From: a virus
Length of the DNA: 55,954 nucleotides
IMG/VR virus record: IMGVR_UViG_3300034198_020285
Span: 1 to 55,954 of that record
Reading direction: 5' to 3' (one strand)
The translations under genes were made by a program, and so were the position numbers. This document shows positions 42,847 to 45,695 of the stretch, piece by piece. Within the stretch, counting starts at the first letter, position 1; the number at the start of each line of letters is the position of its first letter. Below the pieces are notes generated by a model that saw nothing but the letters and a program-made list of their open reading frames with translations, did not search any database and had not been told where the DNA came from.

Positions 42847-43281
42847 ATGGCTTATAAAAATAGATTTTTTCCAAAAAACACATCAAAATATATAGGCGAT
42901 CCATCTAGCATTCTCTGTAGATCTCTTTGGGAAAGAAAATTCTGTAAATATTTAGATGAAAATAAAAATATTTTAAGATGGTCGTTTGAAAATATCCGTA
43001 TTCCCTATCTTTCCCCGATGGACAACTCACTTCACCATTATCTCCCCGATTTCATGGTGGAAAAGAAGAACAAAGATGGATCAATCTCTACTTTAATAGT
43101 CGAGGTAAAACCTTATAAGCAAACAAAGGAACCAGTTCTTACAGAATCTGTTTCCAAGAAAACATATGCTAAAAATCTAGAAATGTATCTTGTGAATCAG
43201 GCCAAATGGAAAGCTGCTAGAAAATTTTGTGAGGAAAATAGCATCCAATTTCTAGTACTAACTGAAAAAGAACTACTTTGA
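42847..43281 (+). CDS. 4: Head completion protein gp4 (TnsA-like nuclease fold)
   Basis: A 144-aa gp4 family protein, needed to finish packaged heads before tail joining. The start at MAYKNRFFPKN is chosen over an upstream in-frame TTG because T4 gp4 also begins MAYSG...PKN. Motifs are SKYIGDP, RSLWERKF, the LPDF step (Asp68) and IVEVKPYKQ (Glu86-x-Lys88), the arrangement of a TnsA/restriction-like nuclease core. It is the first gene of the rightward operon; its stop overlaps the next start (TGATG). Confidence 0.92.
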   Translation: MAYKNRFFPKNTSKYIGDPSSILCRSLWERKFCKYLDENKNILRWSFENIRIPYLSPMDNSLHHYLPDFMVEKKNKDGSISTLIVEVKPYKQTKEPVLTESVSKKTYAKNLEMYLVNQAKWKAARKFCEENSIQFLVLTEKELL

Positions 43282-43874
43282 TGGCAGAAAAACCCCAATT
43301 ACCAGAAGATTTCATATCAGGATCGATCACCAACTTCAGAAACAATGTTGTTGATCGCGGTGGTGTCCAGATCTCAAGCCGATATATGGTTGAATTCTAC
43401 ACACCATATGGAAATTTTGCAACCTATCCAAATGAAGTAAACATACCACAAAGAGCATTCATGACATTTGATGCTGGTCAACCTTTGTCGTTGTGGGGAT
43501 CAAGAAGGCATATTCCAATTCAAAACGAATATGATGAATTAACCATGTCATTCGTAGTATATGAAGACTGGGCTGAGAAGAAATTCTTTGAAAGATGGAT
43601 GGATAATATCATCAATACTGGAAAACCAGGACAACAATACTATGAATACGCGAACATGTATTACAAATATGTCGGTAAAATCTACATAAGCACATTTAGT
43701 GCAAATACACAACCAGCATCTGGTGGTCAAAATTTCACATCAAGAGTTCTAGTCGATGAAGCCTATCCTTTGTCATTGCTTCCAATAAGCATGTCAGCTG
43801 ATGGTACTGGATATACCACTTTCGTATTGAACATAGCATATAGAAAATATTATAGTTTGAAATTAAACAGATAG
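43281..43874 (+). CDS. Tail-tube paralogue, probable baseplate-tube junction (gp54-like)
   Basis: A 197-aa protein starting at the ATG that overlaps the gp4 stop (the in-frame TTG one codon earlier is rejected). It follows the plan of gp19: an N-terminal RYMVEFYTPYG strand, a FERWMDNIIN helix in the middle and a DEAYPLSLLPISMS C-terminal segment. A second tube-fold protein next to hub genes is the expected tube initiator, the role of T4 gp54. The family is well supported; the exact gp54 equivalence is inferred. Confidence 0.72.
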   Translation: MAEKPQLPEDFISGSITNFRNNVVDRGGVQISSRYMVEFYTPYGNFATYPNEVNIPQRAFMTFDAGQPLSLWGSRRHIPIQNEYDELTMSFVVYEDWAEKKFFERWMDNIINTGKPGQQYYEYANMYYKYVGKIYISTFSANTQPASGGQNFTSRVLVDEAYPLSLLPISMSADGTGYTTFVLNIAYRKYYSLKLNR

Positions 43875-43888
43875 ATTGAGGTACATTT

Positions 43889-44575
43889 ATGAATTTAAAA
43901 AATGCAATAACTGGTGCTCTTCCGACATATGGATGTTTTTTCCCTTATAGCAAGATAAAAACAAAATTCAGACCATTTCTGGTAAAAGAAGAAAAAAAGC
44001 TGCTGATACTGGAAGAAACATCCACTAATAGGGAAAAGTATGAGGGAATAATAGAAGTTTTAAATGAATGCTTCGATGGGGTGGATTTCACCAGACTTCC
44101 TTTATTTGAAGTAGAATATGCTTTCTTGAAGCTTAGAGCTAAATCTGTTGGAGAAATAGTAACACCAAAAATCATATGTCCAATTACTGGTGAAAACCAT
44201 ATGGTAGAAATAGATCTCAATCAAGTAGAGATGAAAATACCAAAAAAAGAAAATGTAATTCAATTAGCCAAAGATCTTAAAATTTATATAAAATATCCAA
44301 CTATTCGTGAAATAGAAAACCAATACGAAGATATAAATGAACTTGTAGCTGAATGCATAACATATTTTGAAAATACCGATGAAAAAATAGAAAGGAATAA
44401 CTTCTCAAAGGAAGAGGTTCTTGATTTTCTGAACCACCTAACGGTGGCACAATATGGAGAAATTCTAGATTTCTTTGAAAAGATGCCTTCAGTCGTAATA
44501 GATGCTTATTATAGAACATCGGATGGAGTAGAAAGAAAAATAGAAATAAAGGGATTAAAAGATTTTTTTTCCTAA
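43889..44575 (+). CDS. 26: Baseplate hub assembly protein gp26 (0-frame product)
   Basis: A 228-aa protein of the T4 gp26 baseplate hub family: KFRPFLVKEEKKLLILEE near residue 26, ICPITGENHMVEIDLN in the middle and a C-terminal helical segment (FLNHLTVAQYGEILDFFEKMP). GAGG lies before the ATG. The frame closes as KDFFS-stop right after an eight-T run; the heptamer T_TTT_TTT is in register for -1 slippage onto the gp51-like frame, which would give a 284-aa fusion. This resembles lambda gpG/gpGT tail chaperones, which also precede the tape-measure gene. Confidence 0.88.
   Translation: MNLKNAITGALPTYGCFFPYSKIKTKFRPFLVKEEKKLLILEETSTNREKYEGIIEVLNECFDGVDFTRLPLFEVEYAFLKLRAKSVGEIVTPKIICPITGENHMVEIDLNQVEMKIPKKENVIQLAKDLKIYIKYPTIREIENQYEDINELVAECITYFENTDEKIERNNFSKEEVLDFLNHLTVAQYGEILDFFEKMPSVVIDAYYRTSDGVERKIEIKGLKDFFS
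44548..44569 (+). promoter_or_regulatory. Candidate -1 ribosomal frameshift site
   Basis: The zero frame reads GAT TTT TTT TCC TAA. The heptamer T TTT TTT (44563-44569) has the X_XXY_YYZ form, so both tRNAs re-pair after a -1 slip. An AAAGGG that could pair with 16S rRNA lies nine bases before it (44548-44553), the kind of stimulator known from dnaX. The zero-frame stop follows one codon later. No strong stem is obvious downstream. Confidence 0.75.
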
Positions 44576-44742
44576 ACCTCAGCCACATATCTCTTAAAAA
44601 TTATTTTGAAATGATGTACATTCTGACCAAAAACTATGGATTTGGATTGAATGATCTTGAAGGAATGCTACCTTGGGAAAGAGACATATATGTGGAGCAA
44701 CTGAGGGTTGATATAGAAAAAGAAAAAATCAATAGGACATAA
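44569..44742 (+). CDS. 51: gp51-like segment in the -1 frame of gene 26
   Basis: Reading from the slip site, the -1 frame encodes 57 residues: FLNLSHISLKNYFEMMYIL, then NYGFGLNDLEGMLPWERDIYV and a charged helix ending in NRT. The PWERDIYV signature is what I recognise from gp51 hub-assembly proteins of T4-like phages. No start codon or Shine-Dalgarno precedes the protein-like stretch; the first ATG (44611) would omit its first 14 residues. The open frame reaches back to 44515 without a start. Synthesis by frameshifting from gene 26 is the best explanation. A short product from 44611 is the alternative. Confidence 0.72.
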   Translation, partial: FLNLSHISLKNYFEMMYILTKNYGFGLNDLEGMLPWERDIYVEQLRVDIEKEKINRT

Positions 44743-44744
44743 AG

Positions 44745-45695
44745 ATGGAACTCACGATATCAAAAGAAAAAACTTCAGAAGAACAAAAAGAAAAGTTAAA
44801 GAATTTGTTTGAATCTAACGATATTGAAAAAAATATCGTAAAAAATAATATAGATTCAGAACAATATAAAGTAGAACCTAAAAAAACATTTACAGTAGAA
44901 CAGCCAAATAAACCATTATTTTCGTCTATTCGAAAAGATGTAGGCTCCGTACTTGAAAAAATATTACAAGAACAAAATGAAGTAAATAATTACTACATGA
45001 ATTCAACAAACAATTCGACTGCTAGAAAAATAGAAGAAAACAATACCTTCATTTCACCGAAGACAATCAAGAATTCATCTACAGATCTATTCAATCAACA
45101 AAAGAATGTTACTAATATTGAGAATAATTCAAGTAATCAACAGAAAAACATAGATTTTGGATCTATATTCAAGCCATCGAAAAATGTATTGAATGAAATA
45201 AATCAAAAATTCAATACTTCCTCTGATTTGAATGTAAACAATGTATTAAAGACATCACCAACCATACCAGCATTGAAGGATGGTGGAATTGTCACAAAGC
45301 CAACAGTTTCCTATCTCCATGAAAATGAAGCAGTTATTCCTCTGAATAAAACAGAAAAGGTGAATAAATTCATAACTTCATTGACAAGAAATAATGCTAA
45401 CAATATGGTAAAGAACGAAGGATCGGAAAATATTTCACAAATTAGAAATCACACAAATTCAAAAGCGATAAATCAACAAAATTACCAAATGACAATGATG
45501 GAGCATGCGCAAAAAGTGCAAAAGATGCAACCACAAGTCATCAATGCTGGTTCTGGTGGTGGTTCAACTCAAGCACCAAATTCTCTTGATCAAGGAACTG
45601 CCGATGTTGGAGCAGTATATGCTGGTTCCACTTCAAGATCTGATTTCATGATGAGTACATATAGGTTCCCGACATGGAGAACCGCAATGGGATAA
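44745..45695 (+). CDS. Putative tape-measure-like protein (short)
   Basis: A 316-aa Asn/Gln/Lys-rich, largely helical or disordered protein. Residues 179-200 (DGGIVTKPTVSYLHENEAVI) match the C-terminal signature of many tape-measure proteins, and it directly follows the gp26/gp51 pair as tape-measure genes follow their frameshifted chaperones. It has a Gly/Ser-rich linker and a conserved-looking TYRFPTWRTAMG end. T4 gp29 is 590 aa, so it is short for a tape measure; another hub-core protein is possible. It starts 3 nt after the -1 frame stop. Confidence 0.55.
   Translation: MELTISKEKTSEEQKEKLKNLFESNDIEKNIVKNNIDSEQYKVEPKKTFTVEQPNKPLFSSIRKDVGSVLEKILQEQNEVNNYYMNSTNNSTARKIEENNTFISPKTIKNSSTDLFNQQKNVTNIENNSSNQQKNIDFGSIFKPSKNVLNEINQKFNTSSDLNVNNVLKTSPTIPALKDGGIVTKPTVSYLHENEAVIPLNKTEKVNKFITSLTRNNANNMVKNEGSENISQIRNHTNSKAINQQNYQMTMMEHAQKVQKMQPQVINAGSGGGSTQAPNSLDQGTADVGAVYAGSTSRSDFMMSTYRFPTWRTAMG

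Follow-up and report, generated by a model that had tools for sequence, protein, structure and literature searches.

The window analysed here, a stretch of 55,954 nucleotides, comes from an uncultured T4-like virus record in IMG/VR, and no near DNA relative of it was found in the phage collection searched. On its plus strand, a tail tube gene (43278..43874; phrog_45 tail tube, E 7e-15) lies directly upstream of gene 26 (43889..44575), whose 228-aa product matches the gp26 'baseplate hub' family (phrog_150, E 1.8e-52; PF12322, T4_baseplate in Pfam, E 1.5e-49) and is the putative short form (TAC-N) of a chaperone. The gene closes with the codons AAA GAT TTT TTT TCC TAA (stop at 44573-44575), giving the C-terminus GLK-D-F-F-S. 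A run of eight T (44563-44570) near this end contains the slippery heptamer T_TTT_TTT (44563..44569, plus strand), which is in the gp26 register required for −1 slippage and is followed by TCC TAA, as described in a sequence-only reading of this DNA that had gene 26 ending one codon past such a site. Read from 44569, the −1 frame gives FLNLSHISLKNYFEMMYILTKNYGFGLNDLEGMLPWERDIYVEQLRVDIEKEKINRT, and these 57 aa plus stop (44569..44744, plus strand) match phrog_634, the gp51 'baseplate hub assembly catalyst' family (E 2.3e-14), as a candidate C-terminal chaperone domain (TAC-C). The same reading had ended the region at 44742, where the −1 stop codon (44742-44744) begins; with its stop, the frame ends at 44744. 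A virtual fusion of gp26 and gp51 is 284 aa in length, and the junction peptide expected in the fusion protein of the window would be DFFFLNLSHISLK.

A 316-aa ORF (44745..45695, plus strand) follows, and it was called tape-measure-like from a match to phrog_15478 'tail length tape measure' (E 3.8e-7) that covers 38 residues only, making the assignment weak. The gene order is thus tail tube, gp26, gp51 and tape-measure-like; the lambda G-GT-H plan proposed from the sequence is supported for the putative chaperone and frameshifted chaperone behind a clearly assigned tube gene, while the tape measure depends on that 38-residue match in an ORF that is unusually short for one. The corresponding ORF is 298-344 aa long in close relatives of the window (L009, L012, L014, L017, L020 and L022), and the tape-measure-like protein of a sister clade (L018, L019 and L021) has 1012-1243 aa. 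Only the first ~85 and the last ~230 residues are common to the short and long proteins, the middle being mostly missing from the short ones.

An AlphaFold2 model of the gp26 of the window (pLDDT 90) was compared with solved structures using VIA-align. The top PDB match was the HK97 tail assembly chaperone 2ob9 (Z 7.6), followed by 3fgx (Z 7.3), with the third-ranked match at Z 4.9; values of Z < 8 can reflect a common arrangement, and the two leading matches cover residues 1 to about 90 of the model (1-87 for 2ob9). Foldseek alone gave no significant match of the model in the PDB, and the structural match to 2ob9 and 3fgx is therefore supportive, not decisive. A sequence search of solved structures returned chance matches only.

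Conservation of the slippery heptamer

In order to compare the T-run and both frames across related phages, gp26 loci were gathered from IMG/VR and GenBank phages. The gp26 gene was complete in 214 of them, and dereplication at 90% identity left 141 representatives; the loci are related to one another, and the counts below are not independent trials. Scans with T4 gp26 as the query added few further loci, and those with Pootjesviridae gp26 added none. An in-register T_TTT_TTN was present in 137 of the 141 representatives, the four without it all being Ackermannviridae, and thus in every representative outside that family (137/137). The comparison supports the frameshift proposed from the sequence. 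T_TTT_TTC was the most frequent variant (86 of the 137), followed by T_TTT_TTT (43), T_TTT_TTA (7) and T_TTT_TTG (1), and the heptamer usually lies one codon upstream of the gp26 stop. In some loci (L024, L027, L028, L037, L054, L055, L070, L078, L093, L103, L106 and L109) the stop is several codons beyond the heptamer, which is still in place, and the short form carries a divergent C-terminal tail.

Phe-Phe is a conserved end of gp26, and the heptamer could be a by-product of codon bias in AT-rich phages that keep these residues for the sake of the protein. The codons argue otherwise. The six T are constant while the last residue encoded by the heptamer switches between F and L, and the codon ahead of the first Phe, be it for D, S, N, A, H or T, always has T as its third base. 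The first Phe is encoded by TTT in 137/137, against 1062 TTT and 471 TTC in the rest of these genes; likewise, their other F-[FL] dipeptides are encoded by TTTTTT in 25 of 447 cases, compared to 137 of 137 at the heptamer. The heptamer is kept even in GC-rich loci of 0.54-0.64 GC (0.59 in L145 and 0.64 in L036), and Straboviridae such as T4 retain Phe-Phe but write it TTC TTT. We give a by-product of codon bias practically no chance: judged by codon choice, the conserved feature at the gp26 end is the nucleotides of the T-run, not the protein. The two reading frames, the in-register heptamer and a T-run that stays the same where the amino acids change can all be read directly from the sequences.

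A run of T could also yield the −1 product by transcriptional instead of ribosomal slippage. The eight consecutive T of the window fit such an origin, since a T8 run is long enough for some polymerase slippage. However, the run has only six T in 94 of the 137 representatives and seven in another 24, too short for efficient transcriptional slippage, and the codon register is kept, which leaves a transcriptional origin highly improbable compared to slippage of the ribosome.

The −1 frame extension

A gp51 domain was found near gp26 in 211 of the 214 loci with complete gp26, and its frame was −1 relative to gp26 in all 211; the other three were one truncated contig and two T4-type phages. Since phrog_150 reaches into the gp51 region, in-frame gp26-gp51 fusions were suspected, and none occurred among the surveyed loci. 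In the window, the open −1 segment begins at about 44515 without an ATG, GTG or TTG ahead of the conserved LSHISLKNYF block, and the first ATG in this frame is at 44611; the 57-codon gp51-type extension had been described as lacking a start before its conserved part, and this is borne out.

The main competing explanation is that ribosomes terminate at the gp26 stop and reinitiate just past it (translational coupling) to make a separate small gp51, in which case the T-run would be incidental. About 40% of the representatives (55/141) do have an early in-frame ATG just past the slip site, among them S-PM2 (L005), Cr30 (L003, TGATG) and KVP40 (L124, TAATG), and GenBank records annotate gp51 as a gene of its own. 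Yet the conserved L(S)H.(S)L..YY block has no ATG, GTG or TTG ahead of it in the window or in 58 further representatives, and 55 of these 59 also have a −1 stop at most 12 codons upstream of the heptamer. Where an ATG is present, T_TTT_TTN is retained all the same, and gp51 annotations that begin at a downstream ATG (Syn33, HTVC008M and C48C1) lose conserved residues. The clade of the window (11 loci) gives a further measure: over the 13 codons from the slip site to the first ATG, mean dN is 0.077 and mean dS 1.04 (dN/dS about 0.07), which shows that purifying selection acts on the −1 frame upstream of any start codon. AUG reinitiation cannot explain this pattern. Within this clade, we found neither an independent start codon with a Shine-Dalgarno for the gp51 frame nor loss of the T-run. 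Reinitiation as the source of gp51 is very unlikely overall, and phages with an early ATG might make some free gp51 from it in addition to a fusion. The conserved T-run and the constant −1 frame across relatives strongly support the −1 fusion.

In the GenBank records inspected, gp51 is begun at a downstream ATG, with conserved residues lost, or is omitted altogether (L002 2241, L004 2250, L121 2079, L122 2049 and L125-L128). None of the inspected GenBank records of these loci carried an annotated join or frameshift.

Sequences flanking the heptamer

An AAAGGG motif had been put forward as a stimulator nine bases upstream of the heptamer. The motif is present (44549..44554, plus strand) as a weak Shine-Dalgarno-like candidate, but it ends 8 nt from the heptamer, and it is absent from close relatives such as L008 and is not a conserved element. 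The energy of the anti-Shine-Dalgarno duplex is −5.1 kcal/mol in the window, and the family mean is −6.0 compared to −4.6 for synonymous randomisation; the upstream stretch pairs with the anti-Shine-Dalgarno better than its randomised versions in 77% of the 137, a modest excess. The RNA just 3' of the heptamer is somewhat more stable than shuffled sequences (mean z −1.52), but values of −1.2 and −1.06 occur at other positions, and a search for a conserved structure downstream of the heptamer across the family gave no consensus. Because of this, and because other positions come close, we do not claim a downstream RNA structure, and both upstream and downstream stimulators of slippage are unproven.

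The Ackermannviridae loci

In Ackermannviridae (bering, Vi01, 3M, and Dickeya and Klebsiella relatives), the same gp51-like domain lies in the −1 frame across the gp26 stop (L118 3141-3330, L119, L129-L143 and L223-L225). The stop, usually TAA but TGA in 3M, is read within −1 leucine codons (TTA / CTG), and most of these loci lack a start codon upstream of the domain's conserved part. In the records we examined, the domain has either no annotation or the label 'hypothetical'. Changes ahead of the first ATG fall mostly at −1 third positions (4, 2, 9). No canonical slippery heptamer was found in the Ackermannviridae loci, where TTTTCAT around the site is invariant; U_UUC is the candidate slip site. 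In Vi01, the slip must fall within ATT TTC ATT, since the −1 frame has a stop three codons upstream. On balance we lean, by a little, to the view that the frameshifted chaperone predates the T4-like phages and is common to the Vi01-like Ackermannviridae, which would slip at a non-canonical [A/G/C]TT_TTC (a candidate single-tRNA slip on U_UUC). The −1 reading of a gp51 domain at a site other than a canonical heptamer is possibly new. Vibrio phage D531 (L222 1465-1720) has a related −1 arrangement with CTT TTC AAG TAA, early in-frame ATGs and an unannotated domain.

Comparison with T4, lambda and other phages

T4 gp51 (249 aa) aligned by hhalign to residues 15-275 of the 284-column virtual fusion (E 9.4e-19; E 7.6e-14 for its match to the whole fusion profile), and its residues 207-246 match the C-terminal gp51 domain profile. 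T4 gp26, in contrast, aligned to the first part of the fusion only (E 1.2e-24; E 7.6e-23 against the gp26 profile). Nearly full-length matches to the fusion profile were also obtained for five of six additional gp51 proteins, with hosts of the gene ranging from Gaprivervirus to Aeromonas phage 44RR2.8t; the sixth, from Proteus phage Pm5461, matches the second half of the profile. Since T4 gp51 corresponds to the whole fusion and T4 gp26 to its first part, T4 has the short and long forms as two genes. The statement that T4 genes 26 and 51 are separate was thus right as far as it went; what it left out is that gp51 is the long form at full length, with homology to the whole of the fusion. None of eight Straboviridae gp26 genes has an in-register slippery site, with Phe-Phe kept in half of them (GAG TTC TTT in T4), and wherever gp51 is annotated among the eight, it has its own gene on the opposite strand. 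T4 therefore resembles the window in that its gp26 and gp51 are homologous to the gp26 and the fusion, and differs in having the long form as its own gene on the opposite strand and a gp26 free of the slippery site.

Lambda gpG/gpGT are likened to the chaperones of the window by gene arrangement, not by sequence similarity. Both systems have a short chaperone with a −1 slippery site at its 3' end and a C-terminal extension in the −1 frame. In lambda the chaperone genes lie between those for the tail tube and the tape measure (gpH); in the window they lie between the tail tube gene and the weakly assigned tape-measure-like ORF. They differ in the heptamer, which is G_GGA_AAG in lambda and T_TTT_TTT here, and in that the window comes from a myovirus and lambda is a siphovirus. 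Another similar system is the TAC locus of Vandenendeviridae/Andersonviridae (phage Adele), for which PMC12846349 describes a conserved −1 frameshift with a T-run at the TAC-N end and a C-terminal part annotated as hypothetical; its motif is GTTTTT, and it belongs to another phage lineage than the window.

Discussion

Very probably, a programmed −1 frameshift on the T-run fuses gp26 to the gp51 domain, producing a chaperone pair like lambda G/GT. Gene 26 would encode the short tail assembly chaperone, and most ribosomes would terminate at its stop (44573-44575). In a minority, both tRNA-Phe would re-pair one base back on T_TTT_TTT, and translation would go on in the −1 frame to yield the 284-aa long form with the gp51 (TAC-C) domain. 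In the manner of lambda gpG/gpGT, the two forms may then coat the tape-measure protein and bring in tube subunits. A chaperone pair of this type, acting in tail assembly, is the most likely function. That ribosomes slip in vivo, how often they do so and that the products act as chaperones are inferences from the arrangement and conservation described above.

Work by Vladimirov and colleagues reportedly found frameshifting to be conserved in several T4-like groups, with T4 genes 26 and 51 as separate forms. That study of chaperone genes in T4-like phages (Vladimirov, Gautam and Davidson, Virology 2022, 566:9-15) is cited in PMC12846349 for poly-T −1 slippery sequences in T4-like TAC-N genes and in PMC10885494 for T4-like phages with a short gene and a fused long gene instead of frameshifting, and the entries for these proteins in a T4 review (PMC3004832) list gp26 and gp51 as hub assembly chaperones. 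The sequence-only reading tied gp26/gp51 to the tail-chaperone frameshift system; our data support this link, which had already been published, and the window, with the same gene families in an uncultured lineage, is a well-documented new example and not a new mechanism. As the principle is known, what is gained here is scale, evidence at the level of codons and the extension to Ackermannviridae. Since gp51 calls are wrong or missing in the GenBank records examined, annotations of these phages should include the fusion.

If the 316-aa ORF is the tape measure, the tails should be much shorter, or their length should be set elsewhere. Overall, a deeply conserved frameshift that fuses homologues of gp26 and gp51 supports the reading of these proteins as tape-measure chaperones, with the separate gene 51 of T4 being the full-length version of the frameshift product.
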